NCBI RefSeq assembly: GCF_000346505.1
Contig: NZ_ANOH01000215.1
Location: forward strand, 1-56,123
Direction of reading: 5' to 3'
Source of the DNA: Aporhodopirellula sallentina SM41
GTDB taxonomy: Bacteria; Planctomycetota; Planctomycetia; Pirellulales; Pirellulaceae
DNA: 56,123 nt
The notes below the pieces were generated by a model. That model had not been told where the DNA came from, did not search any database, and was given only the letters and a program-made list of their open reading frames with translations. Position 1 is the stretch's first letter; every line of letters starts with the position of its first letter. The position numbers and the translations under genes were made by a program. Below are positions 14,735-37,967 of the stretch, piece by piece.

Positions 14735-14829
14735 ATCTGCGTGTCGCTCGGGTTGAGATGCCTCTTCCGATCCGGTAGGCCGCGTGTTTGGATCGGCCCG
14801 CGGATCGTCGCGATTCAGTTGGCTCGCGT

Positions 14830-15339
14830 TTACTTGTTCACGGCACCGCGATGGGGCAGCACCCAATCGGGCCGCGCGAAGTGGCAGGTGTAGCCGTTGG
14901 GAAAACGCTCGAGATAGTCCTGGTGCTCCGGTTCGGCTTCCCAAAAATCACTCACCGGTTCGACTTCGGTGACCACTTTGCCCGGCCACAATCCAGACGC
15001 CTCGACATCCGCGATGGTGTCCATCGCGACTTGCCTTTGGTTTTCATCGACGTAATAGATAGCCGATCGGTACGACGCTCCCCGGTCATTCCCCTGGCGA
15101 TTCGGAGTGGTCGGGTCGTGGATCTGGAAGAAGAACTCGAGCAGTTTCCGGTAGGAGACTTTGTCCGGATCGAACATGATTTCGATCGCTTCGGCGTGCG
15201 TGCCGTGATTGCGATAGGTCGCATTGGGCACATCTCCACCGGTGTATCCGACTCGTGTCGATTCGACTCCGTCCATTTTGCGGATCAGGTCCTGCATTCC
15301 CCAGAAACACCCGCCCGCCAGTACCGCACGCTCTGTCAT
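14830..15339 (-). CDS. msrA: Peptide methionine sulfoxide reductase A
   Basis: 169-residue cytoplasmic MsrA. It reduces methionine-S-sulfoxide in proteins and free methionine. The catalytic motif AGGCFWGMQ places the nucleophile at Cys11. Other family blocks are [27 protein letters not shown] (split for length), [27 protein letters not shown] and [20 protein letters not shown]. The usual distal resolving cysteines are absent apart from the Cys in GYTCHFARP, so regeneration may use that residue or an external thiol. Length is typical. It faces the P450 gene and is divergent from the exopolysaccharide operon. Confidence 0.97.
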
Positions 15340-15862
15340 TATTTGCTCTCCATCAGGTTTGATTGCGACGCGTTTTCGCTCTCGATTACACCTTGTTTAT
15401 AGGGTGCGGGCAATCGACGATCCGATTTTGGGTTCGGAGGCTGCTGGTTGTACGGATTGTAGGGACGAGCCGTCTCGCGAGATCAGGATTTCAGATCACG
15501 GGACACTTGGTCCAACCGCCTCGGTAGGCAAATGTCGTCCTCAGAAATGAAAAAACGGCATTTTTCCGCGTTTTTTGACGCATCCGCCCAATTCTTGCGC
15601 AGGCGATTGCGTTTCCATAAACGCAGCGCATTGTCTGTGCAGGCACCATAGCGTGGAAGCGGCATCATCAAAACCGCGACAACACACTGATCCCAAAAGT
15701 ACTGATGCAAAAACGTCCACTAAATTTTGAATAGATTTTGCGGAATCACTGAGTAATGTGGGCTGACGCTGCGGGAGAGGAGGGCTTTTCTACCTGATTC
15801 CTGCGGCGTCTCATTTCTCCCAGGACGTTCCCAGCATTATCTCAGAGCCGGAAAAGTCTTCC
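15340..15862. promoter_or_regulatory. Divergent upstream region of msrA and the exopolysaccharide operon
   Basis: 523 bases with no convincing gene. An A/T hairpin (AAAAAACG 15550-15557 with CGTTTTTT 15569-15576, 11-base loop) lies about 290 bases before the first exopolysaccharide gene and could be an attenuator or terminator in a long leader. An A/T-rich stretch, AAATTTTGAATAGATTTTG near 15722-15740, is the best promoter-like patch, without a clear consensus. Confidence 0.4.
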
Positions 15863-17377
15863 ATGCGTCTTCCACAACCTTTGTCCGTAACTCGTTTACT
15901 CGATCGTCGAGACATTGTTCTACCGAACTCGAATTCACCCGATGGCGTTTTGCAGGTGCGAGCACCGAGCGAACGCGATGCGGTCGAATCGGCTCGGCAT
16001 AGCCTGCGACAACTCGCAACATACGCCGTCATGATCCTCGCCGACGGAGCCACATTGGCATTGGCGATGGGTTTGGCATTCACCGTTTGTGGTTTGGGGA
16101 CCGGTTTCGATCCGGTCATGATGTACTGGCTGTCTGCCGGCGTGATGTTCGCATCGTTTGTGATGTTGGGTTTGTATCCCGGAATCGGAATCACACCCGC
16201 GGTTGAGATTCGCCAAACAACCATGGTCGTGAGCGTCGTGATGTCGGCGTTTGCGGCGGCGACGTTGTTGCACGCCCGTGACCCGTGGGCACTACTGCAT
16301 GTGGCCGTGGTGTGGATGACCCTGTTGGTTAGCATGCCAGTGTCGCGAGGAATGGCGCGGTGGTTGCTCGCAAAGACGAGTTGGTGGGGAGCCCCGACGG
16401 TGATCTTCGGCGCCGGTGAAACGGGCGTATCCATTTACGAGTCGCTACGGGACAACCCGACGTGGGGATTGCGGCCGATCGGAATTGTTGACGATTCGAT
16501 TCGCAGTGAGGCTGCCTCGCAGGGATACCTCGGACGCACATCGGAAGTGCCGGATCTCGTTCGGGAGTTCGGCGTGACGTGGTGCGTTGTGGCGATGCCC
16601 GATCGTCCGCGAGAAGAAATATTGAAACTGGTCGACGACTACGCGGGGATGATCCCGCACACGTTGGTCGTGCCGGACTTGGCCGGACTGCCGAGTTTAT
16701 GGACCGGGGCGACCGATTGTGGCGGTTTCCCTGGACTGCGTTTGAAAGAACGTTTGTTGATGCCGCTTCCTCGAATCTCTAAACGAGTCGTGGACATCGC
16801 CTTGACACTAGCCGTCATTGTGATGTGTGCCCCTTTAATGGTTTTGCTGGCTGTGGTTGTCAAGCTGACTTCGCGTGGCCCGGTCTTCTACGCTCAACAG
16901 CGTTTGGGTCTTCACGGCAAACCATTCAAAGCGTGGAAATTTCGCACGATGGTTCCCAACGCGGACGCGATCCTGGAAGAGTACCTTCAAAAGCATGAAG
17001 AGCTTCGCGAAGAATGGGAACGCGATCACAAACTGAAGAAAGACCCTCGAGTGACGTTGGTGGGACGATTCCTACGTAAAACGAGTTTGGATGAACTACC
17101 GCAAGTTTGGAACGTTCTGACCGGCGAGATGAGTTTGGTCGGGCCGCGTCCGATCGTGCAGGCGGAAGTTGACCGATACGGCGATTGTTTCGGTTTGTAC
17201 CTGCGTGTGCGTCCGGGCATCACCGGGTTGTGGCAGGTATCGGGACGCAATAACACGACCTACGAAGAACGCGTGCAGTTGGACGGGTACTACGTGCGAA
17301 ACTGGTCGCCGTGGCTGGATTTCTGCATTCTATTATCGACCATCCGCGTGGTCCTGCTCAGAGAAGGGGCATTTTAG
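15863..17377 (+). CDS. Exopolysaccharide initiating polyprenyl-phosphate sugar phosphotransferase (WbaP/WcaJ type)
   Basis: 504-residue integral membrane enzyme that transfers a sugar 1-phosphate from a UDP-sugar to undecaprenyl phosphate, the first step of repeat-unit assembly. The N-terminal half has four membrane segments ([40 protein letters not shown] and so on). Next is a Rossmann-like CoA-binding domain ([20 protein letters not shown]), then the re-entrant helix ([20 protein letters not shown]) and the catalytic domain: [71 protein letters not shown]. This is the WbaP-like full-length form. First gene of the exopolysaccharide operon; the next gene starts 4 bases after its stop. Confidence 0.95.
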
Positions 17378-17381
17378 GCGG

Positions 17382-18893
17382 ATGAGTGTGAAGCAACTCA
17401 ACGCATCGACCGCAGATGTCGCTGTCTCGGTTCCCGTTTCCTCTCAGCCGTCGATGACATCGGCGGACAGCCCGGTCGAGGCTGAGGTTTCGGAATCGTC
17501 CGAGAAACAAGGGTCCCAAGGGACGCAGAAGCGACTGTTCCGCGAGAGTGTTTGGGTTGTCGGTGGACGAGTTCTAGGGATCGCCACCGCAATCGGTTTG
17601 AATATCGTTTTGGTGCGAGTGTTACCGCCGGCGGACGTGGGTGTTTTCTTCGTTCTCGGCAGCATCATCACGTTTGCTGCCATCGTGGCGATGTTCGGAA
17701 CGCACACGGGATTGGTCCGTTTCGTATCCGAGCGAATCGGTGTCGGTGACGCCGAGGGCGCGAAGACCGCGTTGCGACAGGGGGCCAAGTTCGCTGCGGT
17801 TGCCATCACGTTGGGCAGTATCCTGACGATGGGCTTTTTGTATTTTGCCGGCGAACCATTGTTCGGGCTCAAACATCTCGAAGTCATTGCACCGTTGGTC
17901 GCGGTGAGCGTGTTCGGCGCCGCGGCGATTCAACTGTGTGCGAGCCTGCTGCGTAGTTTTCACGATTCGCGTTTCTCGATCTTGCTGACCGGACAATTCG
18001 GCGGCCCGCTTTGCAACCTGCTGTTCATCGGGTTGGCGGTCGGGTTGAGTTTGTTCGCTCCCCTGAGCTTGAAGCAGGTGATGTTGTTTTGCGCAATTTC
18101 ACTCTGTTTGCTGACTCCGATCGCGATCATGATTTTATATCGGGTTGGAAAAGCGCGTTTGCGAGAGATCGCGATCGATGATCAACCGTCGGAAGCACTC
18201 CCGATGTCGGTGCTGCTGCTGGCGTGTTTGCCGCTGATGCTGGCACAGAGTTTGTCGTACATCACCGGCCAGGCAGACATTTGGATCGGCGGTGCGATTG
18301 TCGACCACGATGAACTCGCCCTTTACGGCGCGGCGCGGCGATTGATGCTGTTGATCGGAATGCCGATGCAGTTGGTAAACCTAACAGTGATTGCATCGAT
18401 CGCGGAGCTACGTGCTCAAGGTCGGGTCGACGAGCTCCAGCGGATCCTGCGTTTCGCGGCGACGTTGGCTGCGATCGCGGCGTTCGCGGTTTGCATCCCA
18501 CTGATTGTCTTCCCCGCACAAATCACGGCGTTCATTTTTGGTTCGTACTATGCCGAGGGTGCCACGGTGTTGCGGATTCTGTGTTTGGGTCAGATCGTTT
18601 TCGTTTCCGCCGGCGCTGCGGAGTTGACGCTGATGATGTCGGGCGAACACATGAAAGCGTTGTGGATCAACGTCGTCACCTCGATCGTGTTGTTGGTTGC
18701 CGGCGTGATGCTGACATCCACCTTCGGGATTGTGGGGCTGGCGATCGCCTGTGCATCGATCATCTCGTTGCAATGCATTGGCTTTTGTTTGTATGCCCGA
18801 TGGTCGGTCGGTGTGTGGACCATTCTCGATCTGCGGGTTTTGCGATCTTTGCCGGACATAGCCCGCATGACTGCACAGAAGTGGACTAAATAG
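17382..18893 (+). CDS. Lipid-linked oligosaccharide flippase (Wzx/MATE-like)
   Basis: 503-residue polytopic membrane protein with about 12-14 hydrophobic helices, beginning after a charged ~60-residue cytoplasmic N-terminus. Opening of the core is FRESVWVVGGRVLGIATAIG and LNIVLVRVLPPADVGVFFVL, typical of the polysaccharide transporter (PST)/MVF superfamily. It likely flips the undecaprenyl-linked repeat unit across the inner membrane. The frame is open further upstream but overlaps the previous gene; ATG 17382 lies 4 bases after that stop. Confidence 0.9.
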   Translation: MSVKQLNASTADVAVSVPVSSQPSMTSADSPVEAEVSESSEKQGSQGTQKRLFRESVWVVGGRVLGIATAIGLNIVLVRVLPPADVGVFFVLGSIITFAAIVAMFGTHTGLVRFVSERIGVGDAEGAKTALRQGAKFAAVAITLGSILTMGFLYFAGEPLFGLKHLEVIAPLVAVSVFGAAAIQLCASLLRSFHDSRFSILLTGQFGGPLCNLLFIGLAVGLSLFAPLSLKQVMLFCAISLCLLTPIAIMILYRVGKARLREIAIDDQPSEALPMSVLLLACLPLMLAQSLSYITGQADIWIGGAIVDHDELALYGAARRLMLLIGMPMQLVNLTVIASIAELRAQGRVDELQRILRFAATLAAIAAFAVCIPLIVFPAQITAFIFGSYYAEGATVLRILCLGQIVFVSAGAAELTLMMSGEHMKALWINVVTSIVLLVAGVMLTSTFGIVGLAIACASIISLQCIGFCLYARWSVGVWTILDLRVLRSLPDIARMTAQKWTK

Positions 18894-18926
18894 GAAGGAA
18901 TGGACGTCACGGATTTTTTCCTTCCT
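18892..18926 (+). terminator. Inverted repeat after the flippase gene
   Basis: AGGAAGGAA (18892-18900) and TTCCTTCCT (18918-18926) form a 9-bp perfect stem overlapping the flippase stop codon region. No T run follows, so this may be an attenuator, a processing site or a partial terminator; the 228-base gap to the next gene is the longest inside the operon. Confidence 0.4.
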
Positions 18927-19121
18927 AATTAACATGAATGGAAACAAGACCGCGGCTCGGATGACGCGGGTTCGTCGCTGATGATGCAGTGACACGCTAC
19001 CCATCGCCGGTAGACAGGAACTGCCTGATCGTCAGGACGACGGTGACATTTTTCGTCAGAATCCTCCGATCACAGAAGTACCATTTCCACGTCAGTTCCC
19101 ACATCCGCGGCATTCGCAAAA

Positions 19122-20402
19122 ATGCCCGACGAACCTGAACGACCCAACTGGGTGGCTCGAATCGCGACTGTGATTTGGCAACCGAGTTTGGTGTTCATGC
19201 CGTTCCTGATCATGGGGATCGTGCTGTGGTTGTGCCCTTCCATGGAAGGCGCGTCGGGATACATCGTTCGCGAAGAGATCACGTTTTCCAACCTGGGAAT
19301 CCTGACGAGTTGGTACGCGTGCATCTGCATCTGTGCCTGGATCGGGCAACGGTTGGCTCTCGAGATTCCTCGGATGACGATCATGTCCCAAGACGCGATC
19401 GAGCCACGTACGTTTTATCTCGCCCTGTCTACGCTCGCTTTTGTCGGCGTGGTGAGTGCGTGGTTGGCGGCGTTGCGGGCGGGTCCGTCGCTGATCGAAC
19501 TGGTCCGGACGCAGCAGTTCAATTTGCTCAAAGACGCGTTGTATGAGAACTACAACCTGCTGTACTCGCTCCGCTATACGTCGTCGCTCGTCGGCGGTTA
19601 CGCGATGTACCGGATCGTGTTCCAAAGGAAGCTGACTCGATTGGATGCGATGAATTTGGTGCTGTTGCTCGCCGCGGCCGCGATTTCCGCCCGAATCTTG
19701 ATTTTGCAAGCGGTGATCTTTTCCGGTGGTCTGGCCATTCGATTCAAAGACATCGGTCGGATCAGCACTCGGACGCTCGGCATCACCGGGCTCGTGTTGG
19801 CAATGTTGATCGTTACGTTGACATGGGTCCGTAGTGCGGGCAGTTACCGCGACTACTTCGGCGTTCGCAATCCGGTCGCGATGACGTTTTTGGAGATCCA
19901 GCGATACGTCGGTGCTCCCGTGCAAGCCAGCATGGGCGTTGCCAGGATCGCGGCACACCAACCTCCGCGAGGCTCGCTATCCAACGTGGTTGCATACGTG
20001 ACGCCCACGTTCCTGCACCCGGCACACCTGAAGGCGGAAGACAATTCCGGCGGCGTCGCGGCACAGTGGTATTTGCATGACGTCGACATCAGCGAAACGT
20101 TGACAACGAACTCCGCGTTCGTCGACATGTACGGTCACCTGGGGTTCTGGGCGTTTCCCGTGATTGCCTGGTCGACGTTCGTCATGGCAACGGTCGGCAG
20201 TTACTTCTGGCGTTCGGACAATCTGCTGTGCTTGATCGGGTGCATCGTGCTGTATGGCTTCTTTGAACTTTGGCGGACGTATTACTTCTCGGCAGGTTCA
20301 TTCACGTTCATGATATTGGCGGTTCTCGCTGCCGCCGGGGCTGCGTCGTGGGCAACACCCAAAACCCGTTTGGCGACACCGAATGCGGAGGCCGCGGCAT
20401 GA
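19122..20402 (+). CDS. Putative O-antigen/exopolysaccharide polymerase (Wzy-like)
   Basis: 426-residue polytopic inner-membrane protein with about 10 hydrophobic segments, for example LVFMPFLIMGIVLWLCPSM, LVLLLAAAAISARILILQAV and LGITGLVLAMLIVTLTWVRS. A large exported loop lies between the later helices (GSYRDYFGVRN to LTTNSAFVDMYGHLGFWA). The A.ISARIL block and the 'DMYGHLGF' block resemble O-antigen polymerases of planctomycetes. Wzy proteins are poorly conserved, so the call rests mostly on topology and on its place between flippase and glycosyltransferases. The start of the next gene overlaps its stop (ATGA). Confidence 0.75.
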   Translation: MPDEPERPNWVARIATVIWQPSLVFMPFLIMGIVLWLCPSMEGASGYIVREEITFSNLGILTSWYACICICAWIGQRLALEIPRMTIMSQDAIEPRTFYLALSTLAFVGVVSAWLAALRAGPSLIELVRTQQFNLLKDALYENYNLLYSLRYTSSLVGGYAMYRIVFQRKLTRLDAMNLVLLLAAAAISARILILQAVIFSGGLAIRFKDIGRISTRTLGITGLVLAMLIVTLTWVRSAGSYRDYFGVRNPVAMTFLEIQRYVGAPVQASMGVARIAAHQPPRGSLSNVVAYVTPTFLHPAHLKAEDNSGGVAAQWYLHDVDISETLTTNSAFVDMYGHLGFWAFPVIAWSTFVMATVGSYFWRSDNLLCLIGCIVLYGFFELWRTYYFSAGSFTFMILAVLAAAGAASWATPKTRLATPNAEAAA

Positions 20403-21460
20403 CAAAACAACCTAACATTCTTTTTGATTCGCGTTGGATGGGGGCCCATGGGATTGGCCGCTTCGCCACCGAACTGAACAACCGCTTGCCTTGCCTGAAC
20501 CGGTCCGAGATCGGTGGCAAGCCGACGAGCCCGTTGGATTGCCTGCGATTGGCTCGGGCCATTTGGAAACACGACACCGCGTTTTTCTCGCCGAGTTACA
20601 ACGCGCCGCTCTCGTGGCTGGTTTCCTCCAAACGCCCATTTGTCTTTACCATTCACGATCTGATTCACATCAATTACCCGGCCGAATCCTCCGTCGCAAA
20701 ACGGTTGTACTATCAACACGTGATCCGTCCCGCGGTCCGCAAAGCCTACAAGGTTTTGACGGTTTCGGAGTACTCGAAACAGGAAATCGTGCAGTGGGCG
20801 GGAGTCAGTCCCTCGCACGTCGGCGTCGTCTACAACGGCGTCGGCTCCGCTTTCCAAGTTGACGGCGAGCGACGAGAGACGGGGTACGACTATTTGCTAT
20901 ACGTCGGCAATCAAAAGGCACACAAGAACGTCACCGGTTTGCTATACGCACTCGCACAAGTGCGAAGACGCATCGACGTGCATTTAGAAATCATCGGCAA
21001 GGCGGAAGAGCACACACTCGCAACGATCAATGAACTCGGGCTCACCGAGCACGTGCACTTTCTCGGTTCGGTCTCCGACGAAGAACTCGCCTGCGTGTAT
21101 CGCGGAGCGATGGCCACCGTGTTGGCATCGGAGTACGAAGGTTTCGGTCTGCCGGTAATCGAATCGATGGCCTGTGGTACGCCGGTGGTTTGCAGCAACG
21201 TGACGTCGCTGCCGGAAATTGCTGGCGGTGCGGCTGTCTTAGTGGAAACCAACCCGGACAGCATCGCCGAGGGAATCGAACGGTTGCTCGGCGATCAAAC
21301 ACTCCAGGAAAGCCTGATCGCGGCGGGTCAGAAACGCGCCGCAGATTTCAGTTGGGAGGCGACCTCCGCCAAAGTGCTCGAAGTAATTGGGCAAATGGCG
21401 GGAAACGAATCACAATGTCTCAATCGAATTGTTACACCTTTAGAAGCGACTCCGCAGTAG
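20399..21460 (+). CDS. Glycosyltransferase family 4 (GT-B)
   Basis: 353-residue cytoplasmic retaining glycosyltransferase. N-terminal acceptor side: ILFDSRWMGAHGIGRFATEL and FVFTIHDLIHINYP. C-terminal nucleotide-sugar side: DYLLYVGNQKAHKNVTGLLY, VHFLGSVSDEELACVYRGAM and the E-x7-E motif in SEYEGFGLPVIESMACGTPV. The 'FDSRW....GIGR' opening is like mannosyl/rhamnosyl transferases of the WbcX/WbdA type. ATG 20399 overlaps the polymerase stop by ATGA. It adds one sugar to the lipid-linked repeat unit; donor unknown. Confidence 0.93.
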   Translation: MTKQPNILFDSRWMGAHGIGRFATELNNRLPCLNRSEIGGKPTSPLDCLRLARAIWKHDTAFFSPSYNAPLSWLVSSKRPFVFTIHDLIHINYPAESSVAKRLYYQHVIRPAVRKAYKVLTVSEYSKQEIVQWAGVSPSHVGVVYNGVGSAFQVDGERRETGYDYLLYVGNQKAHKNVTGLLYALAQVRRRIDVHLEIIGKAEEHTLATINELGLTEHVHFLGSVSDEELACVYRGAMATVLASEYEGFGLPVIESMACGTPVVCSNVTSLPEIAGGAAVLVETNPDSIAEGIERLLGDQTLQESLIAAGQKRAADFSWEATSAKVLEVIGQMAGNESQCLNRIVTPLEATPQ

Positions 21461-21463
21461 GTC

Positions 21464-22690
21464 ATGAAAAACGTTGCAATCATTCATGAATGGCTGACCA
21501 CCTACGCGGGTTCTGAACGCGTGGTGGAACAAATGCTGCATGAGTATCCGAAGGCGGACCTGTTCGCCGTCGCGGATATCCTGCCTGATGACGAGCGGGA
21601 ATTCCTGCAGGGAAGAACACCACACACCACCTTCATTCAAAAACTACCGTTCCTCAAAAAGCTGCTACGGCACTACCTCCCATTGATGCCGATGGCGGTC
21701 GAGCAATGGGACCTGAGCGGTTACGACGTGGTGTTGTCGTCCAATCATGCCGTCGCCAAAGGAGTGATCTGCGGTCCTGATCAATTGCACGTCAGTTACG
21801 TGCACACGCCGATCCGTTACGCGTGGGACTTCCAGGCACAGTACCTTCGCGAATCGAACCTGACCTGGGGCATTCGCAGCATGGTGACTCGAGCGATGCT
21901 GCACTACATCCGATTGTGGGACAAGGTTTCATCGAGCCGCGTGGATGCCTACGTCGCTAACAGCCACTTCATCGCCCGACGCATTCAAAAGTGTTACGGT
22001 CGCGAAGCAACGGTGATCCATCCTCCCGTTGATGTCGATGCGTTTGAGCCGACCTATGAGAAGGAAGACTACTACATCGCGGCATCGCGATTGGTCCCCT
22101 ACAAACGAGTTGACCTCGTCGTCGAAGCGTTTCGATTGATGCCACATCGAAAACTCGTCGTCGTGGGCGACGGACCGATGTTCAAATCATTGAAAGCGAA
22201 CTGCCCTCCCAATGTTGAGTTGCTCGGATACCTGCAGCACGACCGGATGAGCAAACTGATGCAGAACGCGAAAGCGTTCGTCTTTGCCGCCGAAGAAGAC
22301 TTCGGGATCACACCGGTCGAAGCCCAAGCGTGTGCAACACCGGTGATCGCGTACGGCCGCGGAGGCAGTTTAGAGACCGTGATCGATGGAGTTACCGGAT
22401 GCTTCTTCGCCGAGCAAACTCCCCAGAGCATTGCTGCGGCAGTAGACACGTTCGAAAGCCAAGCAGGGCAATTCGACTTACCTCAAATCAGGCGGCACGC
22501 CGAAGGGTTCCGGCCCGAGCGTTTTCGCAAGGAATTGTCGGACTTTATTGAGGCCGAGTGGGCCAAGTTCGACGGGCACCGACGCCATCAACCTCATTGT
22601 GATAACTCGGCCAACGGTTCGCAGTCCGCGGACTCCCCAAGTCAAAGCCCCGTTATCATCGGTGACCCTTTAGGAATGACAGTATCATGA
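21464..22690 (+). CDS. Glycosyltransferase family 4 (WbaZ-like)
   Basis: 408-residue GT-B enzyme. The opening VAIIHEWLTTYAGSERVVEQ, then YDVVLSSNHAVAKGV, VSYVHTPIRYAWDF and VIHPPVDVDAF, match WbaZ-like mannosyltransferases that use GDP-mannose. The donor-binding end has DYYIAASRLVPYKRVDLVVE, VVVGDGPMFKSLK and the E-x7-E region AEEDFGITPVEAQACATPVI. The last ~45 residues are a poorly conserved tail. It begins 3 bases after the preceding gene and overlaps the next one by ATGA (22687-22690). Confidence 0.93.
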   Translation: MKNVAIIHEWLTTYAGSERVVEQMLHEYPKADLFAVADILPDDEREFLQGRTPHTTFIQKLPFLKKLLRHYLPLMPMAVEQWDLSGYDVVLSSNHAVAKGVICGPDQLHVSYVHTPIRYAWDFQAQYLRESNLTWGIRSMVTRAMLHYIRLWDKVSSSRVDAYVANSHFIARRIQKCYGREATVIHPPVDVDAFEPTYEKEDYYIAASRLVPYKRVDLVVEAFRLMPHRKLVVVGDGPMFKSLKANCPPNVELLGYLQHDRMSKLMQNAKAFVFAAEEDFGITPVEAQACATPVIAYGRGGSLETVIDGVTGCFFAEQTPQSIAAAVDTFESQAGQFDLPQIRRHAEGFRPERFRKELSDFIEAEWAKFDGHRRHQPHCDNSANGSQSADSPSQSPVIIGDPLGMTVS

Positions 22691-24240
22691 CTACCAACAA
22701 TCCGATCACTGAAAAACCGACCCCCGAGAAAACTCTCGACCTCACGCAAGCCGTTTGGCAGAACCGTGGAAAGATGTTGATCGTCTTTTCGTTGGTGATG
22801 CTCGGCACGGTGGGACTGCTGAAAGTTGCGAAGCTGAAGTTCACTTCCGAGGCGAAGATGTTCGTTCGCCTCGGGAAGGAAACCGTGGGTCTCGATCCGA
22901 CCGCCACGGTGGGTCAAACCATTGCGGTGCAAGAAGGACGCGAAAAGGAGATCTACTCCGTTCAATCGCTGATGCAAAGCCGCGGCGTTCTCGAAGAGGT
23001 CGTCGACGCGGTCGGTGTTGAAAAGATCCTCGAAGAAACAGACAACGATGAACCGGGATGGATGCCGATCCAACTCGGCGAACTGAAGAAACTCAGCCCG
23101 GTCTACGTCGACAGCCCACGCGATGAAGCGATCGAGAAACTCGAAAAGGGTCTCGAGATCTACAACCCGCGTTCGACCGCGATCATCGGACTGCGATACG
23201 AAACGATCAGCCCGGAACTCGCCGCCGAGGTGCTCGACCAAGTGATCGATTCGTCGGTGGACGCTCACGTGCGGATTCACCAGTCCGAAGGGTCCAACAA
23301 ATTCTTCACCGCGCAAACCGAGAAGATCGCGGGCGAGGTTGCACGCCTCGAACAAGAACTCGTCGACTTCAAAAACGAAAGCGGTGTCTCGGAACTGAGC
23401 CAACATCGCCAGGTCAAGATCGCCCAAATCGCGTCGCTCGAGGACGCTTGGCTCGATACGATCGCCCAAATCGAAGCCGTCGAAGGCGAAATCGAATCTC
23501 GCGAACGCATGGTCGCGCAGCAACCTCGACAAGTCCGATTGGCCGAGACGACAGGCCTGCCCAGTAGCGCCGCCGAAGGGATGCGAGAACAACTCTACTC
23601 GTTGCAGTTGAACGAGAGCGAGTACCTGTCACGCTACCAACCGACGCACCCGAAGGTTCGCCAAATGCGAGCCCAAATCGCGGCCGCTCAAGAAACACTC
23701 GATTCGGAAAACCGTTTGACGCAGGTCACGATGGGCGTCAACGAGTCACGTCGGGAAATGGAAGCGGAATTGCTCAACCAGCGTGCGATCGCCGCGTCGC
23801 TCAACGCCAAACAAGAAATCCTTGCCCAGCAAATCGCCGACGCCAAGAGCGAACTGAAGGCGATCAACCAAAACGAAATCGAGTTGGCTCAGATCTCGCG
23901 ACGATTGGATTTGGCGCGAGCGAGTTACCAGGACTATGCACGACGATCCGAGTTGGCACGCATGGATCAAGCGTTGAGCCAAGAAAGCCTGTCGAACCTC
24001 ACCGTGCTGCAGATGCCGAGCCAGTCGAAGATCCCGTCGAGTCCGAAGGTCGCAATGACGCTGGTCATGGGCTTTACCGCCGCGGTCTTCCTGAGCGTGC
24101 TCACGGCGATCCTTGCGCAGTTGCGAACGATCTATCGGGCAGAGCCGGCCAAACTGGTACGCACCAAGAAGGAACCGCTATGGAAGGGATTTCGATTCGT
24201 TAACGCAGCGACGCGTTTACTCTCCTTCCGGTGGCTATAA
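22687..24240 (+). CDS. Polysaccharide co-polymerase / chain-length determinant (Wzz/GumC-like, no kinase domain)
   Basis: 517 residues. An N-terminal membrane helix (MLIVFSLVMLGTVGLLKVA), a long exported region with predicted coiled coils (EKIAGEVARLEQELVDFKNE, MEAELLNQRAIAASLNAKQE, IELAQISRRLDLARASYQD) and a C-terminal membrane helix (VAMTLVMGFTAAVFLSVLTA) form the polysaccharide co-polymerase architecture. The proline-rich PSQSKIPSSPKVAM segment before the second helix is typical. There is no Walker A tyrosine kinase domain after it, so it is the kinase-less GumC form. It controls chain length and links polymerase to export. The stop (TAA 24238-24240) overlaps the ATG of the peptide synthetase by one base. 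Confidence 0.93.
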   Translation: MTTNNPITEKPTPEKTLDLTQAVWQNRGKMLIVFSLVMLGTVGLLKVAKLKFTSEAKMFVRLGKETVGLDPTATVGQTIAVQEGREKEIYSVQSLMQSRGVLEEVVDAVGVEKILEETDNDEPGWMPIQLGELKKLSPVYVDSPRDEAIEKLEKGLEIYNPRSTAIIGLRYETISPELAAEVLDQVIDSSVDAHVRIHQSEGSNKFFTAQTEKIAGEVARLEQELVDFKNESGVSELSQHRQVKIAQIASLEDAWLDTIAQIEAVEGEIESRERMVAQQPRQVRLAETTGLPSSAAEGMREQLYSLQLNESEYLSRYQPTHPKVRQMRAQIAAAQETLDSENRLTQVTMGVNESRREMEAELLNQRAIAASLNAKQEILAQQIADAKSELKAINQNEIELAQISRRLDLARASYQDYARRSELARMDQALSQESLSNLTVLQMPSQSKIPSSPKVAMTLVMGFTAAVFLSVLTAILAQLRTIYRAEPAKLVRTKKEPLWKGFRFVNAATRLLSFRWL

Positions 24241-27200
24241 TGGATCTCGGTGGCGAGGAAATCCGCAGCAGCCAGAGAGGGAATCATCTGTTCTCAGTAC
24301 AGCATCGACATCCGAGTGTCGATGTGCCGCGGCGCAAGCGCGAAAAGGCGATGATGCCGCATTCGAAAGATGTCCTCGCGCGATGTCAGCGTTTGACACC
24401 GGATGAACAAGACAAACTGGTGGAACGCTGGAATCAAACGAGCGAACCGTGGGCGGATGATCCATGCCTGCATGAGTTGTTCGTGCGGCAGGCCGAGAAA
24501 ACGCCTGACGCGCCGGCGGTGATCTTTGACGACAAGTCGCTTTCCTATGGAGAACTCCACACTCAGTCGACACGAGTTGCCGAGCGGCTGATCGAATCAG
24601 GAGTGGCCCCCGAAGAAGTCGTCGGTGTGGTTCTCGACGGGACGCCGAACGCCTACATCGGAATTCTCGGTATTTTGAAGGCGGGAGCGGCTTACCTGCC
24701 GATCAACCCGGATTTCCCACGCGATCGAATTCTGTTTTTTCTGCGGCAGGCCGAAGCACGCTTTCTCGTTGGCGAACTCGACGCGGCGATCATTGAAGAG
24801 ATCCCCCGGTTATGCACGATTGCGATCGACGGAGAGTCCTCCGCAACCGGGACGGTGAAGTTGCCAAACGTGGCCGCCGAATCGTTGGCGTATGTGCTGT
24901 TCACGTCCGGATCGACGGGCAAGCCCAAAGGGGTGATGTTGAATCACCGAGGGCCGGTCAACACCGTTCGTGATATCAATGTCCGTCTTCAAGTCGGTCA
25001 ATCGGATCGAGCCCTCGCGCTCTCGTCGCTCGGGTTCGACTTGTCGGTTTTTGATCTGTTCGGGATGTGGGGAGCCGGCGGTGCGATCGTCCTGCCAACG
25101 CCATCGGAGTCTCGTGATCCTGCGAAATGGGCGAATTTGATCGACCGCCATGACATCACGATTTGGAATTCCGTTCCGGCGTTGATGGAAATGCTGGTCA
25201 CTTTTTTCGAGGGAAATCGCGTTCTTTCGTCGCTGCGTTTGGTCATGCTCAGTGGTGATTGGATTCCGGTGACACTGCCCGATCGAATCCGCCTCGTCGC
25301 GCCGCAAGCGGAGCTAGTGTCGCTCGGAGGCAGCACAGAAGTGTCCATTTGGTCGGTCATCTTTCCGATCGACGGGGTCGATCCGAAATGGACGAGCATC
25401 CCGTACGGCAAACCGCTTCGCAACCAACAATGTTACGTCGTTGATGAACAATCGAATCTTTGCAAGATCGGCGAAACCGGCGAGCTGTGCCTAGGTGGCG
25501 TTGGCGTGGCACTCGGTTATCTCAACCGCCCCGATTTGACTGAACAACAATTTGTCAGTGACCCTTTCGGAAAGGGAACAACGCTCTATCGAACCGGAGA
25601 CCTCTGTCGATACGGCGAGGATGGCAACATCGAGTTCCTCGGCCGAGCAGATCAGCAAGTCAAAATCCACGGCTACCGGATCGGGCTAGGCGAAATCGAA
25701 TCCGAAATCACGAAATTGACTGGAGTCCGTGAAGCCGCCGTCATCGCGAATGAAGGCAATACCGGGGCTCGACTGATCGCCTACGCGGTCTTCGAAGACG
25801 GCCATGAGATTTGCCTCGCGGAGTTAAACCAGCGGTTAGCAGAAAGTCTCCCGCACTACATGTTGCCCTCCGCCCTCGTCGCGATTGAGCGTCTCCCTTT
25901 GACCGCCAACGGCAAGGTCGACCGCAAGTCGCTGCCGATCCCGCAAGTGAATTGCGATGCCGGGGCCGATCTATCAGAGGTAAACGAAACCGGAGCGTTT
26001 CTAGTCGCGACGTTGCGTGACCTGCTGCATTTGCCGAACGTCGACCCGAAAGTAGGGTTCATGGAACTCGGCGGCAATTCGCTGGCCGCGGTCGCACTGG
26101 CCGCTCGCGTGAAGGCAAAGTACGGAGTACGGCTCGAGTTCTGGGGGATTCTTGCACAGTCGCCTAGCACGATTGAACTATCCCAGCAAATCGATGATCT
26201 CGTCCAAAACAAGACCGCCGAATCTTACACGGTGTCGGCAATCGGACACGAAAGCCTTTCCGTTGCACCGGTGTCATCGCACCAGCAGCAGATGTGGATC
26301 GAGCATTTCCTGGTTGCTAACCGTGGCAGGTACAACATCCCGCTCGTTTACGACGTCAAAGGTGAATTCAATCTTGACGCGTTCGAACATGCGTATCAAC
26401 AGGTCGTTGACCGGCATCACGTACTACGCACTGTTTATGAGGCAACCGCCGAGGGTTTGGTCCAACGCGTTTTGTCGTCCTCGTCGTTTTCGATCGATCG
26501 CATCGACCTGAGGGACCGGCAGTGTGACGAACGCGCTCAATTGTTCGAAACGCAGGCTCGTGAATATGTGACCAAGCCGTTCGATCTGTCGATGGAGTCG
26601 CCGATCCGCCTGCGCCTTTATCACATTGGTGAAGAACAGTATCGAATCGTCCTGGCGGTTCATCACATCGCGTTTGACGGACATTCGATCGGCGTGCTGC
26701 AGCGTGATCTCGCGGAGTGTTACAACGCGGCACGCGACAATCGCGCACCGCAATTGCCCAAGTTGTCACATCAATACGCGAACTATTCGGTTTGGCAACG
26801 ACAACGGTTGGAAGATGGATCGTTAGAGCAAGACAGAGATTATTGGCGAGAGAAACTCGGCGGCGAACTGCCCGTGCTCGATCTGCCACGAGATCGATCA
26901 AACGTTGATGACACGGCGAGTGACACGTGTTCGTTGACGGTTGATGGTGACCTGCTGGAGTCGGTTCGGACGTTTTCCGCGGAGCGACAATCAACGTTGT
27001 TTGTCACTTTATTGTCGGCAATCAAAGCGGTCTTTCATCGTTACACCCAACAAGAAGATATCGTCATTGGGTCAGCGGTCACGTCGCGAGATGATCTCGC
27101 AATGGAGGACCTCGTCGGCTATTTCATCAACGTGTTGCCATTGCGGACACGGTTTGATGGCAGCGACAGCTTCGAATGTTTGCAGGCGAAGGTGCGGGAT

Positions 27201-30200
27201 ACGGCGTTCGATGCATTTGCCCATCAACGCTATCCGCTCGATCTTCTGAAGAAGGAAATCTTCAGCGAGGGAGAGATGGGGGACGCGCCCTTCCGCGTGC
27301 TGTTCATTTTAGAAAACCAACCCGACGCGTTGAGCTTGGATGGTGCCTCAACCACGACCATTCCCTTTGACACACGGTTGGCCAAATTTGATCTCTTGAT
27401 AGCCGTCAACGAGTCGCCAGATCGTTTGCGCATCGAACTGCAGTACCGGTGCAAACAGTTCCACCGTCGCCGCGTGGAGCGTTTCGGCGAGCATTTGCGA
27501 GGTCTTTTGGCGAGTGCGGTTGTCGAACCGAGTTGCCCGGTAGACCAACTCAAGATTTTGTCGTCCAACGAACTCGCAACCGTACTGCCTTCGTCATCCA
27601 TACTCGATTTGGCAGACGATGTCGCCATCGAGACTTCGGTCGCGAATCAAGCATTCATCTCTGTGTTGTCGCTATTTGACGACCAGGTACGACGCACACC
27701 TGATTCCCCTGCACTGAGTTTCGAGGGGGAGTATTTGACATACGCCCATCTCGATCGCCGCGCATCCGAACTCGCCGAACGGTTGAGTCGCTTGGGAGTC
27801 CAACAAAATGTTCCTGTAGCGATAATGCTCGAACGTTCGTTCGACATGATCGTGGGCGTGCTCGCGGTCATGAAAGCGGGAGGATGCTACGTTCCCGTTG
27901 ACCCATCGCTCCCCATGCAGCGACGGCGACGGATCCTAGAAAACTGTCACGCTGGTGTTTTGATTTCCGAAACCACTCTCGTCGACCGGATGTCGGCCGA
28001 TGAGGCGGGAACGGTCCTTCACGACCTGCACGTTGTTTCCATCGATCGAAACAATGAGCCTGAGGACGAGTCATACGCGACGGCGGAGAAAACGCCAGGC
28101 GTGCAACTAGATGATCTCGCGTATATCCTTTACACGTCCGGATCGACGGGCGAGCCCAAGGGTGTTGCGATGCGTCACGGTGCCGTGGCAAATTTGATTG
28201 ATTGGCAACTCCGCAACAGCGAAGCCTCTGTCGGAACCAAAACACTGCAATTCGCGTCACTCGGGTTTGACGTGTCATTTCAAGAGATCTTTGCAACGCT
28301 TTGTGGCGGCGGAGAACTGCAGCTCGTTTCGAGCCGTTTACAGCAGGACCTGCTTCAGCTGTGGCGGTTCATTGTTGACGCGGGAACAGAACGCGTGTTT
28401 GTCCCCTTTGTCGTTCTGCGAACTCTCGCGGAGGTGGCGAACGATCGATCACAGCAGTCGTCACTGCGAGAGGTGATGACCGCGGGCGAGCGTTTGGAAA
28501 TCACCCCCGTCGTTCGAAACTTCTTTGCAAAGCGGCCAGAGTGTCGGTTATGGAATCATTACGGACCGACGGAAACGCACGTCGCGACCGCGCATCCACT
28601 CGACCGCGACGCACTTAAGTGGGATACGGTTCCTCCGATCGGAACGCCCATCAACAAATGCGTGGCCGTGGTGCTCGATGAAAACCTGCAACCGGTTCCG
28701 CAAGGCGTCGACGGCGAGTTGTACCTCGGCGGTGAGTGTTTGGCGCAGGGCTACTTCGGCAACGAAACGCTTACAAGTGAGCGATTCATTGAGAACCCGC
28801 ATCCGAACCTGCCTACCGAGCGTCTTTACCGAACCGGCGACATCGCTCGGCTCAACTGGGATCATCAACTCGAGTTCATCCGACGAAACGATCTTCAGGT
28901 TAAGGTGCGGGGACACCGTGTCGAACTGAGTGAAATCGAGTCTGTATTGGCGCAGTGCCCTGGCGTCCGGCAAGCGGTCGTTACGTTCCAACGGAGCGGA
29001 CTAGGTGGGCAACTCAATGCACACGTCATTCGCGACAACGAATCATTGTCGCCACGCGTGCTAGAGGATTTCCTGCGAACGCATGTGCCCGCATACATGA
29101 TGGTCAGCCATTTCGATTTGGTTGATGAGTTCCCGATGACGCCGAGCGGCAAAGTCGATCGCAAACGCTTAGCATCGATCAAAACCACAACCATCGCCCG
29201 ACAAGCGTCCGAGCAAGTGATGCCGACCACGGGGGATCCGTTGATCGATCGGATCACTGAAATTTGGCAGTCCGTTCTGGGCGTGGATGGATTGGATTCA
29301 GAGAGCCATTTCTTTGATTGCGGCGGTGATTCCCTCAGCGCGGCGATCTTGTTCACGCGATTGGAGAAGGAGTTTGGCAAAGCGGTCTCGATGACGAAGC
29401 TCGTCAGCAGTCCAACGATTGGTGAACTCGCTGAGGTCTACCGGCAAAACGAATCCCATGTCGAAGAGTATTGGAACGATCTCGTTCGACTCGATCCGCG
29501 TGGGAAAATCGACCGTGATCAACGTCGAGATACGCAGCGACTACAGGCCCCGTTGTTTTGTTTTCCAGGCATTGATGGGCATCTGTTGAACTTTCGAGAG
29601 ATCGCCGCGATGCTCGGAGAGGATCGAGACGTTTATGGCGTGCAGCCCATCGGGCTCGACGGGGAACGTTCCCAGCCAGAAGCGATTGAAGACCTTGCCC
29701 GACAGCACGTCGAGATGATTCGGCGTGTCACTCCCCATGGGCCGTATCACTTGGCTGGATTCTCGTTTGGCGGCGTGGTCGCCTACGAGGTCGCACAGCA
29801 ACTGCGGCGATGTGGCGAAACAGTGACCCTGGCGATTATCGACGCATTCACCGGCCTACCGATCCCCGCTCCTTTGCATCAGAACCTCCTGTTCCATTTG
29901 CGATACGCCAAAGAATGCCAGGGCCGCCAGCGATGGACGTACCTGTACGAGCGGCTCGTTGGGATGGTGCTCGCGATTCGTTACCGGTTCGGATGGATCA
30001 CAATGGAGCAACGTTTGGAACGCATCATCGGAACCAAGGGGATCTACGCGAAGGTAGCCGCGAAGAACATGGATGTAATTACTAGATACCGCCCCGGTGC
30101 TGCCGAAGGGCCGGCGACGTTGTACAAGGCCAAACTACGAGCAAATTGGCCTGGACGAGATCGCACTGATCCGCAATTGGGATGGGGAGCCGTCTTTCAA

Positions 30201-30311
30201 GAACAAACGCTCGAGGTCGTCGAGGTCGACGGGGCACACGCGAACATGCTTTCCAAAGCCAGGGTACGCGGCCTCGTCGAACACATGCGTCAACGGATTC
30301 AAAACGGCTAG
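24240..30311 (+). CDS. Dimodular nonribosomal peptide synthetase (A-T-C-A-T-TE)
   Basis: 2023 residues. Domains: linker and A1 (about 40-580; LFTSGSTGKPKG at 221, TGDLCRYGEDGN, NGKVDRK), T1 (LGGNSL, phosphopantetheine Ser614), C (about 650-1090; HHIAFDG with His808/His809/Asp813), A2 (about 1130-1650; YTSGSTGEPKG at 1298, TGDIARL, SGKVDRK), T2 (CGGDSL, Ser1698), TE (about 1760-2023; GFSFGG, Ser1842). The protein starts with the linker that normally joins C to A, so module 1 loads without its own C domain and the product is a dipeptide unless used iteratively. Binding-pocket residues of A1 read D-L-F-N-M-S-L-I-W-K, close to the Cys pattern D-L-Y-N-L-S-L-I-W-K. A2 reads D-V-Q-F-M-A-H-V-A-K, nearest to Pro-type patterns I recall (weak). 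ATG 24240 shares one base with the preceding stop; ATG 24351 (AAAAGG upstream) is an alternative. Confidence 0.95.
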   Translation: MDLGGEEIRSSQRGNHLFSVQHRHPSVDVPRRKREKAMMPHSKDVLARCQRLTPDEQDKLVERWNQTSEPWADDPCLHELFVRQAEKTPDAPAVIFDDKSLSYGELHTQSTRVAERLIESGVAPEEVVGVVLDGTPNAYIGILGILKAGAAYLPINPDFPRDRILFFLRQAEARFLVGELDAAIIEEIPRLCTIAIDGESSATGTVKLPNVAAESLAYVLFTSGSTGKPKGVMLNHRGPVNTVRDINVRLQVGQSDRALALSSLGFDLSVFDLFGMWGAGGAIVLPTPSESRDPAKWANLIDRHDITIWNSVPALMEMLVTFFEGNRVLSSLRLVMLSGDWIPVTLPDRIRLVAPQAELVSLGGSTEVSIWSVIFPIDGVDPKWTSIPYGKPLRNQQCYVVDEQSNLCKIGETGELCLGGVGVALGYLNRPDLTEQQFVSDPFGKGTTLYRTGDLCRYGEDGNIEFLGRADQQVKIHGYRIGLGEIESEITKLTGVREAAVIANEGNTGARLIAYAVFEDGHEICLAELNQRLAESLPHYMLPSALVAIERLPLTANGKVDRKSLPIPQVNCDAGADLSEVNETGAFLVATLRDLLHLPNVDPKVGFMELGGNSLAAVALAARVKAKYGVRLEFWGILAQSPSTIELSQQIDDLVQNKTAESYTVSAIGHESLSVAPVSSHQQQMWIEHFLVANRGRYNIPLVYDVKGEFNLDAFEHAYQQVVDRHHVLRTVYEATAEGLVQRVLSSSSFSIDRIDLRDRQCDERAQLFETQAREYVTKPFDLSMESPIRLRLYHIGEEQYRIVLAVHHIAFDGHSIGVLQRDLAECYNAARDNRAPQLPKLSHQYANYSVWQRQRLEDGSLEQDRDYWREKLGGELPVLDLPRDRSNVDDTASDTCSLTVDGDLLESVRTFSAERQSTLFVTLLSAIKAVFHRYTQQEDIVIGSAVTSRDDLAMEDLVGYFINVLPLRTRFDGSDSFECLQAKVRDTAFDAFAHQRYPLDLLKKEIFSEGEMGDAPFRVLFILENQPDALSLDGASTTTIPFDTRLAKFDLLIAVNESPDRLRIELQYRCKQFHRRRVERFGEHLRGLLASAVVEPSCPVDQLKILSSNELATVLPSSSILDLADDVAIETSVANQAFISVLSLFDDQVRRTPDSPALSFEGEYLTYAHLDRRASELAERLSRLGVQQNVPVAIMLERSFDMIVGVLAVMKAGGCYVPVDPSLPMQRRRRILENCHAGVLISETTLVDRMSADEAGTVLHDLHVVSIDRNNEPEDESYATAEKTPGVQLDDLAYILYTSGSTGEPKGVAMRHGAVANLIDWQLRNSEASVGTKTLQFASLGFDVSFQEIFATLCGGGELQLVSSRLQQDLLQLWRFIVDAGTERVFVPFVVLRTLAEVANDRSQQSSLREVMTAGERLEITPVVRNFFAKRPECRLWNHYGPTETHVATAHPLDRDALKWDTVPPIGTPINKCVAVVLDENLQPVPQGVDGELYLGGECLAQGYFGNETLTSERFIENPHPNLPTERLYRTGDIARLNWDHQLEFIRRNDLQVKVRGHRVELSEIESVLAQCPGVRQAVVTFQRSGLGGQLNAHVIRDNESLSPRVLEDFLRTHVPAYMMVSHFDLVDEFPMTPSGKVDRKRLASIKTTTIARQASEQVMPTTGDPLIDRITEIWQSVLGVDGLDSESHFFDCGGDSLSAAILFTRLEKEFGKAVSMTKLVSSPTIGELAEVYRQNESHVEEYWNDLVRLDPRGKIDRDQRRDTQRLQAPLFCFPGIDGHLLNFREIAAMLGEDRDVYGVQPIGLDGERSQPEAIEDLARQHVEMIRRVTPHGPYHLAGFSFGGVVAYEVAQQLRRCGETVTLAIIDAFTGLPIPAPLHQNLLFHLRYAKECQGRQRWTYLYERLVGMVLAIRYRFGWITMEQRLERIIGTKGIYAKVAAKNMDVITRYRPGAAEGPATLYKAKLRANWPGRDRTDPQLGWGAVFQEQTLEVVEVDGAHANMLSKARVRGLVEHMRQRIQNG

Positions 30312-30320
30312 AGCGTTTTG
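30300..30320 (+). terminator. Hairpin at the end of the peptide synthetase gene
   Basis: CAAAACG (30300-30306) pairs with CGTTTTG (30314-30320) around GCTAGAG, which contains the stop codon. It lies between two convergent genes and could stop transcription from the plus strand; the stem is short. Confidence 0.4.
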
Positions 30321-30421
30321 AGATTTACCGTGTCTAATCCGCGTTGCTGAATCTGCCAAAACTCAGGCCACCGAAGTCTCGCAACATCGGCTACGTCAAT
30401 CTTTCAAACGAGCTCAACGCC

Positions 30422-31912
30422 TCAGTCCAATTCTTCGGCGAGGCGTTCGGTGTCCGTTCGAAGTTTCCGCATGTACTGTCGCCACTCCAATTCAAGGGTG
30501 GTGCGATCTCCGAAACAGTCATCGAAGATCTTGAGCAGTTCGTCTGCACGGGCATTCCAATCCTCTTTGGTAAACTCGCCTTCAGGATCCTTCAGTTGAC
30601 CGACCCGCTTGTAGAATTTCATCAACGAATCAAAGCGTTGGTTGAACAGAAAATGCGTCAACGCCCAAGCTTGCCCGTAGGCGGGTAACTGGTTTCCAAG
30701 TGCGGACTCGAGCACAAAGCCGAAATCGGACACGATAAACTCGAGACTCCCCCGCAATTTGTCACGTTCGAGAATTCGGTAGTAGTTGATACGTGTTTGA
30801 TCGACCACACCGACACCGCTCCACTTGGCCAATTTTGCGGATTCAAAATACGACGCCATTCCTTCGTGGACCCATCGGACGAACGCGGCGTCGCGTGGGA
30901 AGACTCCCGTGTTCGCCGTCAATTGATGGATGGCTTCATGAGAAACCGTGGAAACATCTTCACTTTCGCGAGTGATATCGATCAGCAGTTCGATCGTTTT
31001 CGCGAACCGGATCAGGTCACCTGCACCGGGAAGGCGATTCCTCTTCGCGTTCGTTCTCGCCGTGGTGAGTTGTTGATCGAGCTCCATGAGAACTCTGAAA
31101 TGCTCGGAGGTTCCCGAATCGTAGAACATCGAAATGTTCTCCTTCGGCAGATAGAACCCGGCGGTCTGTTTGAGACTCCCGCCGAGGCGTCGTTCCATCT
31201 GAAGGAAATCTCCGTGGCGACTGAACAGCACTACTTCGAGTCGCTCGCGTGGCGGACGTAGAAAGACCCCACGAAACGCGAACGTTAAGAAATACGACTC
31301 GTAAACCGTCTCAAGCAATTCGAGACGCATTTCGGCGCGAGTCTTCCCCGTCACTTCGTCTTCGGCTTGCTCGGCATCATGCAACAGGAGAAAGTGCTTG
31401 CTGCGTGTCACCTGCATCTCGCGTCCGCCGACGAAGTCCCGCGCGTGCGCTTCAATTTTGGGATCGGTTGGCACCGACGCGTTGAGGTAGCGCATCAGTC
31501 CGGCGAGTTTGCGAAGCTTCAAATGCTTCGGGTCGATCTTCCATGCGACGCTAAGGAGCGACTTGGATTCCTCGAGCATCCCGTTTTCGAGGCACCACTG
31601 TGAAAGCTCGAGTGCCTTCTCGACATCGTTTTCCTTGCGAACCGTCCGCAGGCGTTTGGCATAAATCGCCTGAGGCGACGGACTCTTCACCACATGAATG
31701 TCACGGGAACTGAAGTGCAACGATCCGCGCGGATGCCGAAGCGTCGCATTCCCACCGGCGTGATGCGTCACCGATCCTTCGAGCAACAGTTGCAACTGCG
31801 TCCCCGGCAGTCGGTAAAGGGTGTAGTCCGCCCGTGCGGTGGTCATGAATGGCTGCCCACAGAAGGACAGTAACAATAGCAAGAAAATTGCGAAAGAATG
31901 AACTCGAATCAT
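30422..31912 (-). CDS. DUF1570 secreted putative metallopeptidase
   Basis: 496 residues with a signal peptide (SFAIFLLLLLSFCGQPFMTTARA). The DUF1570 domain occupies the C-terminal two thirds: LEVVLFSRHGDFLQMERRLG, AGFYLPKENISMFYD and the zincin motif in VSHEAIHQL (His325-Glu326-x-x-His329), followed by FVRWVHEGMASYFES with a downstream Glu suited as third zinc ligand. The first part (to ~170) has short helical repeats, SQWCLENGMLEESKSLLSVA, of TPR type. The family is expanded in planctomycetes; peptidase activity is inferred from HExxH. ATG 31912 is chosen over the upstream 31939 for the signal peptide. Confidence 0.88.
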   Translation of the reverse strand: MIRVHSFAIFLLLLLSFCGQPFMTTARADYTLYRLPGTQLQLLLEGSVTHHAGGNATLRHPRGSLHFSSRDIHVVKSPSPQAIYAKRLRTVRKENDVEKALELSQWCLENGMLEESKSLLSVAWKIDPKHLKLRKLAGLMRYLNASVPTDPKIEAHARDFVGGREMQVTRSKHFLLLHDAEQAEDEVTGKTRAEMRLELLETVYESYFLTFAFRGVFLRPPRERLEVVLFSRHGDFLQMERRLGGSLKQTAGFYLPKENISMFYDSGTSEHFRVLMELDQQLTTARTNAKRNRLPGAGDLIRFAKTIELLIDITRESEDVSTVSHEAIHQLTANTGVFPRDAAFVRWVHEGMASYFESAKLAKWSGVGVVDQTRINYYRILERDKLRGSLEFIVSDFGFVLESALGNQLPAYGQAWALTHFLFNQRFDSLMKFYKRVGQLKDPEGEFTKEDWNARADELLKIFDDCFGDRTTLELEWRQYMRKLRTDTERLAEELD

Positions 31913-32357
31913 GCGAGCGCGTGCCTCCAAAATGCCCAATAACCACGAAACCTAAACCGCCTCCAAACAGAAGCCGGAATTCTTGTTTCGCGTCCACAAA
32001 CGGGACACCTCAGAAAACCATCTCACCTCGCGTGCCCCATTCGACGAGATGCCCCCCAGTTTAAACCAAACACTCCCCCGACGTTTTCGCGATGCAAATT
32101 TTTCCACCAGCCACCTGCTCGACGCCTGTCCTGCTCCAACACCGCCCTTCTTTCTGACGAATCACTTGCCCGAGTGCTGCGGCACTTTTGTGCTAGAAGA
32201 AATGTCGATCGTGAAGGTTTTCGTCTCGCCGTTCGTTTAGCCTTTTCGCCTTGGCGGAGAACTGCCCCGCGCCGCAACGCAATGGTCACGTCCCCGCCGC
32301 TCTCCCTCCCGCCCCCCACGTCCTGCTGCGTGGTTCCCCACCAAGAGAAGACTGCAC
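31913..32357. other. Divergent intergenic region between DUF1570 gene and rhamnosidase
   Basis: 445 bases. I see no gene, repeat or clear promoter consensus. Overlapping open frames here run into the rhamnosidase in the wrong strand or frame and have Arg/Ser/Pro-rich shadow composition. Both flanking promoters must lie here. Confidence 0.6.
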
Positions 32358-35753: not shown

Positions 35754-35879
35754 TCGCCAGAGCGAAATCGTCTCACGGGAGTGACCCCACGACGAACCTC
35801 TCCCGAATCAACACGAACAAACGTGTTCGCGAATCTTCGACCTCGCGAGTAAACCTTTTGCCGAACGGATAGAACTCAA

Positions 35880-37946: not shown

Positions 37947-37967
37947 TCCATGGTCAGGAATAGCTGC

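Follow-up and report, generated by a model that had tools for sequence, protein, structure and literature searches.

A predicted Cys-Pro peptide synthetase adjoining a Wzx/Wzy exopolysaccharide operon in Aporhodopirellula sallentina and its relatives

The window analyzed here is the whole of a 56,123-nucleotide stretch (contig NZ_ANOH01000215.1) from the planctomycete Aporhodopirellula sallentina SM41. Directly behind the gene for the Wzz-type co-polymerase of a Wzx/Wzy exopolysaccharide (EPS) operon, it encodes a dimodular nonribosomal peptide synthetase (NRPS) of 2023 residues (24240..30311, + strand), with the domain order adenylation (A), carrier (T), condensation (C), A, T and thioesterase (TE). 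The Wzz-synthetase pair is rare and patchy, and the two genes stood together in every genome in which close relatives of them were found. We propose, with confidence about evenly balanced, that the synthetase may be the glycan-decorating arm of the EPS pathway, with its TE placing Cys-Pro (or Cys, in a one-module form found in a relative) on the repeat unit.

Predicted product of the synthetase

Pfam analysis of the synthetase returned two AMP-binding, one Condensation, two PP-binding and one Thioesterase domain. These correspond to A1 (24483..25916), T1 (approximately 25992..26189), C (26262..27575; PF00668, 315 bits), A2 (27666..29177), T2 (29247..29435; PF00550) and a TE with the type I thioesterase fold (29550..30299), all on the + strand. 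Active-site motifs were located at residue 611 (GGNSL, T1), 808 (HHxxxDG, present as HHIAFDG in C), 1695 (GGDSL, T2) and 1840 (GFSFGG, TE). All seven dimodular enzymes compared (window included) conserve the serines of both carriers, the HH pair and a putative TE triad, Ser1842/Asp1868/His2000. Both the domain order and the motifs bear out the A-T-C-A-T-TE architecture that the original prediction had read from the translation, and this ordered set with its active-site residues is that of a type I NRPS. Within the synthetase, Pfam found no second condensation-type (epimerization) domain or other extra domain. A phosphopantetheinyl transferase of PF01648, a family which also covers housekeeping AcpS, was present in 9/9 genomes searched. 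Elsewhere in the window's own genome (G000), two contigs (C20:6623-12995 and C274:30226-31578) carry another three condensation domains that pass the Pfam cut-off, and the genome therefore has other NRPS loci.

Relatives are designated here by number: G003 and G009 belong to the genus of the window, G018, G232 and G322 to a second genus of its family, G287 to a third genus, and G055 to a different family. The A1 pocket read DLFNMSLIWK in the window, DLYNMSLIWK in G003, G009, G018, G232, G322 and G287, and DLYNLSLIWK in G055 and in a further genome, G087. All seven dimodular enzymes and G287 shared the consensus DL[YF]N[ML]SLIWK. Among solved structures, the A1 specificity stretch was nearest to 6lta, BmdB and PchE. 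The aligned pocket residues of BmdB (D-L-Y-N-L-S-L-I-W) and PchE (D-L-F-N-L-S-L-I-W) agreed with those of window A1 at 7/9 and 8/9 positions, respectively. We take BmdB and PchE to load Cys, and 6lta a serine analogue. For A2, the pocket was DVQVMAHVAK in the window and DVQLIAHVVK in G055 (consensus DVQ[VIL][MIV]AHV[AV]K in all seven dimodular enzymes), and the nearest solved relatives of the pocket region were TycB1 and GrsB1, both presumably Pro domains. The TycB1 pocket (D-V-Q-L-I-A-H-V-V) was matched at 6/9 positions by window A2 and at 9/9 by G055. A1 is accordingly annotated as a predicted Cys domain and A2 as a predicted Pro domain, such that the predicted product of all seven dimodular enzymes is Cys-Pro, with Cys preceding Pro. 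Both amino acids come from the pockets; the original prediction had named none. The same product is predicted down to 35% identity, which argues that the product matters.

The Wzz stop codon (TAA, 24238-24240) and the synthetase start codon (ATG, 24240-24242) form the sequence TAATG (24238..24242, + strand) and have base 24240 in common, just as first reported for this locus. This overlap is tight packing of genes, with the originally proposed translational coupling as a possible consequence, and was conserved in G003 (TAATG) and G009 (TGATG). An alternative in-frame ATG pair at 24351/24354 is preceded by a purine-rich stretch. The overlap ATG is the better start, because G003 and G009 keep an ATG there, the synthetases of G000 and G003 begin with similar residues (MDLGGEEIRSSQRGNHLFSVQ and MDFRNEGIGSRQRGSNLFSVQ, respectively), and no ATG matches the later pair in G003. 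For G018, G232 and G322, the synthetase frame is bounded upstream by the Wzz stop itself, which is in frame with it, and the earliest possible start codon follows 21-24 bases later.

Recurrence of the operon and the Wzz-synthetase pair

A search with the synthetase across 60 relatives gave full-length matches above 1000 bits in four genomes (G003, G009, G018 and G055), and Wzz adjoined the synthetase in all four. Using the window proteins as tblastn queries, the order Wzx-Wzy-GT4-GT4-Wzz-NRPS was recovered from six genomes of two genera (G000, G003, G009, G018, G232 and G322). In the latter five, identity to the window was 57-66% for the synthetase, 64-79% for Wzx and 70-85% for the putative Wzy. 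G055 carried Wzz and a full synthetase side by side at approximately 35% identity each, with a GT4 gene upstream and the contig end beyond. Synteny in relatives, which had been put forward as a check on the locus, is thus found as the full order in two genera, as Wzz plus synthetase in another family, and as a one-module version in a third genus. The initiating transferase was linked to the operon only in the genus of the window (G003 and G009); the best WbaP homologues of G018, G232, G322, G287 and G055 were located elsewhere.

Profile searches extended the comparison to 396 genomes of the order. A Wzz profile matched 133 of these at 1e-20. The top seven genomes (477-980 bits) all had an adjoining synthetase, and the next score was 403 bits. 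A TE profile returned the identical top seven at 383 bits or more, followed by G087 at 213 bits and then by scores of at most 160 bits; no other genome scored near the top seven in either scan. Because the profiles hold rows from operon genomes (G000, G003, G009, G018 and G055 for Wzz; these and G287 for TE), independent finds are limited to G232, G322 and, for Wzz, G287. Inspection of 12 further Wzz regions revealed a synthetase in G232, in G322 and at the first of two places in G287, and none in the other nine. The TE was found at 1e-50 in 7 of 241 genomes of the family, and a full-length synthetase in 3 of 13 genomes of the genus. In a scan of 392 genomes across the phylum, only the window's own genome exceeded 172 bits. 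Trees of Wzz and of the shared part of the synthetase agreed in two inner groups, outside which G055 and G287 fell; in both trees most support values were modest and the two outer branches long.

As a control, none of the 79 NRPS loci listed from other named genomes (1.93 Mb; loci chosen by condensation-domain patterns) was hit in tblastn at 1e-5 by the queries for Wzz, WbaP, Wzx and Wzy, with the provisos that the queries were planctomycetal and some flanks short, such that divergent EPS genes could escape, and that records near the window may be missing from the set. Among the control loci listed, there was one partial GT4 match.

Within the window, the operon lies on the + strand. It opens with a WbaP-type initiating sugar-phosphate transferase (15863..17377; PF02397, 1.8e-67; TIGR03022, 484.7 bits against a cut-off of 403) and a Wzx flippase of the Polysacc_synt/MatE type (17169..18893; PF01943, 5.8e-9; MatE, 2.1e-7), whose listed open reading frame (ORF) begins at a TTG within the WbaP-like gene and whose true start is uncertain. 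These are followed by a putative Wzy polymerase (19122..20402) with seven hydrophobic segments, as in a polytopic protein, and by two GT4 glycosyltransferases (20270..21460; PF00534, 3e-35; TTG start, uncertain; and 21464..22690; PF00534, 5e-29). The Wzz-type co-polymerase (22687..24240) has two hydrophobic segments, one near each terminus, and scored below the cut-offs of both PF02706 (22.9 bits against 25.5) and TIGR03007 (92.3 bits). The synthetase is the last gene of the run, since the next gene (30422-31939) is on the opposite strand. The locus combines an initiating transferase with Wzx and with a Wzz just under its Pfam cut-off, which places the operon in the Wzx/Wzy-dependent pathway. 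The gene order first described for this locus stands for the transferase, flippase, two GT4s, co-polymerase and synthetase, while the polymerase has no family match and is now a putative one, assigned by position and topology. A scan of 14600-31000 for sigma-70-type promoters gave one site, on the - strand, compared with 6.2 expected by chance, a result of little weight for a host that may use other promoters.

Like other Wzx/Wzy EPS operons, that of the window lines up in a single series the genes for an initiating transferase, a flippase, a putative polymerase, GT4s and a co-polymerase; unlike them, it ends in a peptide synthetase. A literature search, covering titles and the starts of abstracts and mostly journals outside subscription, turned up no publication about a peptide synthetase gene in such a locus. 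At the C-terminus of Wzz (24180-24240), the final residues FRFVNAATRLLSFRWL were strongly conserved in G003 and G009 and conserved with changes in G018, and the Wzz proteins of G232 and G322 likewise terminate in SFRWL. The synthetase might use this tail for docking.

A proposed transfer to the glycan and its alternatives

The locus of G287 comprises Wzx (47% identity to the window), a Wzy_C protein, Wzz (41%) and then an A-T-TE synthetase of 894 residues, whose start overlaps the Wzz stop by 4 bases. Its A domain is A1-like (48% identity to A1 vs 32% to A2) and has the Cys pocket, its TE is 37% identical to that of the window, and it has no condensation domain. As there is no such domain, and as hydrolysis would merely return the cysteine that had been loaded at the expense of ATP, the TE probably hands Cys to an acceptor. 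Transfer to an acceptor and oligomerization by the TE would be the remaining options, and the glycan would be the acceptor that best fits the neighborhood. We infer from G287 the strongest argument for transfer to the glycan.

Other candidates were set aside. G016 was rejected as an ortholog: its A1 is without the Cys pocket, and its stretch gave no match to Wzz, Wzx, Wzy, WbaP or GT4. Single-module synthetases of approximately 890-950 residues (G002, G004, G005, G007, G010, G012 and others) were considered as enzymes of the G287 type and rejected by their neighborhoods, 16 of which contained no ORF of at least 110 residues matching the window EPS proteins at 1e-6; the G004 gene, for example, sits between an aminotransferase and an alpha/beta-hydrolase. 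A cassette in the genus of the window (L155:7817-12908) consists of overlapping genes for a class-III aminotransferase, a single-module synthetase ending in an alpha/beta-hydrolase, and another alpha/beta-hydrolase. L156-L160 are similar in gene lengths and order, with the Pfam check made on L155 only.

For the dimodular enzymes, the domains and pockets predict that A1 would load cysteine on T1 and A2 proline on T2, and that C would join the two to give Cys-Pro-S-T2. The TE serine would then accept the dipeptide and pass it to a repeat-unit sugar, most likely while the unit is on the lipid carrier at the inner membrane face, ahead of flipping by Wzx. Wzy and Wzz would polymerize the thiol-bearing units into a polysaccharide capable of disulfide cross-linking or of binding metals. 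A TE of this type in G287 would transfer a single cysteine. We are more tentative about the general form of this proposal, in which an NRPS TE would serve as an aminoacyl or dipeptidyl transferase on lipid-linked repeat units, in Cys and Cys-Pro forms, and the secreted EPS could be cured by disulfides.

The original prediction had placed transfer to the glycan or its lipid carrier beside release of a free signal or siderophore-like product. We now favor transfer and disfavor the free products, because the Cys-only module of G287, without a condensation domain, has no peptide to release; attachment of Cys-Pro or Cys to the glycan or lipid carrier is what we infer from the loci.

Relatives of the TE leave room for several chemistries. 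A structure search returned only the general type I TE fold, within which the TE of Pks13 is among the near relatives, by profile as well as by fold, and those of EntF, NocB and FAS are equally near in fold. The TE of Pks13 is described as ligating its product to trehalose (PMC9900942). Pks13, from mycobacteria, differs in being a polyketide synthase with a mycolic substrate and free trehalose as acceptor, and the resemblance is one of profile and fold only.

Several observations weigh against attachment to the glycan. The best profile match of the TE was 7crn, an epimerizing and cyclizing TE, and the TE fold cannot separate transfer from hydrolysis or cyclization. X-Pro thioesters cyclize readily. 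Amino-sugar enzyme families had no match among the operon genes, and the putative polymerase at 19122-20402 matched no Pfam or NCBIfam model. The G287 polymerase (PF04932) is unrelated to it, and the G287 carrier was closer to T2 than to T1 in 4 of 5 comparisons, the exception being that with G018. Finally, G087 encodes a stand-alone Cys A-T-TE (L191:9275-11947; 44% identity to the G287 enzyme) with no homologue of the window EPS genes within the surrounding 20 kb. Its Pfam-scanned flanking genes are non-polysaccharide genes, and the genome gave no Wzz match at 1e-20. This enzyme type is therefore not tied to EPS loci.

Some of these points favor release of a small molecule, free Cys-Pro or the diketopiperazine cyclo(Cys-Pro), produced alongside the EPS as a signal, redox thiol or metal ligand and not bound to it. 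We consider this unlikely, though it is the most serious of the alternatives. A dipeptidyl thioester of the X-Pro kind is well positioned for cyclization and cyclo(Cys-Pro) is chemically easy to form, which fits the two-module form, and 7crn, EntF and NocB offer precedents close in profile or fold. However, the one-module enzyme of G287 should make neither product, yet it occupies the same place behind Wzz and has a kindred TE; moreover, among the loci compared, only the EPS genes of the window accompany the synthetase in both genera. It is less probable again that the TE transfers Cys or Cys-Pro to another acceptor (lipid, peptidoglycan precursor or protein, for instance) and that the EPS operon is merely its place of expression. 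While this accounts for G087, it leaves unexplained the adjacency to Wzz, which persists even at 35% identity and in the single-module enzyme.

Patchy distribution, in 3 of 13 genomes of the genus and 7 of 241 of the family, would suit an old insertion of the synthetase gene downstream of the EPS operon, with the gene moving along with the operon but not linked to it in function. We find this improbable, given the same place, orientation and pockets in eight genomes of four genera and two families, the overlapping genes in G000, G003, G009 and G287, and the nine Wzz regions that were without a synthetase. Least credible, and very improbable in our judgment, is a siderophore-like product. A thiol ligand could bind metal and the A1 stretch is nearest to azoline-forming synthetase domains, but a Pfam scan of 19 window genes between 9.4 and 46.7 kb found no cyclization domain, aryl starter, or tailoring or uptake gene, features by which a siderophore NRPS would be recognized.

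Flanking genes and possible significance

Behind the operon, the window encodes a DUF1570 protein, a GH78 alpha-L-rhamnosidase and two sulfatases (30422-39944), a sulfated-glycan degradation island adjoining the EPS operon. The DUF1570 and rhamnosidase genes also follow the operon in both G003 and G009. In G003 it is followed by the first sulfatase gene as well (stretches L026 and L028 end there). Upstream lies a cytochrome P450 gene (13052-14734), whose counterpart in G003, 82% conserved, flanks the operon on that side too. It was considered as a tailoring enzyme and rejected: it was not found in the G018, G055 and G016 stretches, and the G009 contig ends before it. In G055, a gene for an M28 peptidase with PDZ domains (L032:9919-11598) lies 33 bases downstream of the synthetase on the same strand.

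In the D-alanylation of teichoic acids by DltA and DltC, adenylation and a carrier likewise place an amino acid on a cell-surface polymer. DltA models matched the window A domains below cut-off or as generic A domains. Unlike the Dlt system, the window operon shows no DltB-like transferase and has instead a fused TE and Cys(-Pro) as the predicted cargo.

A thiol polysaccharide would be a known kind of material, as suggested by the sheath glycoconjugate of Leptothrix. Leptothrix sheaths are described as nanofibrils of a glycoconjugate whose thiol groups cross-link the fibrils (PMC8264430), and sheath material as having a high cysteine content and a role for disulfides (PMC5037351). Structural papers on the glycoconjugate (Kondo 2011; Takeda 2005, 2010) are cited in PMC11087309 and PMC11412304. 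The thiopeptidoglycan of Leptothrix and Sphaerotilus, a secreted thiol glycan with cross-linked fibrils (PMC8264430), is thus the sort of material predicted here. For the window operon, the predicted residue pair is Cys-Pro.

If the proposal is correct, it would unite nonribosomal peptide synthesis and Wzx/Wzy polysaccharide assembly, which are normally separate assembly lines. The operon would offer a set of candidate genes for making a bacterial polysaccharide that bears thiols, and its one-module form would be a compact enzyme for placing cysteine on glycans. Planctomycetes often live attached to surfaces, and we speculate that a curing, metal-binding slime would suit such a life. The question of how attached bacteria gain a cross-linkable matrix would then become directly testable.

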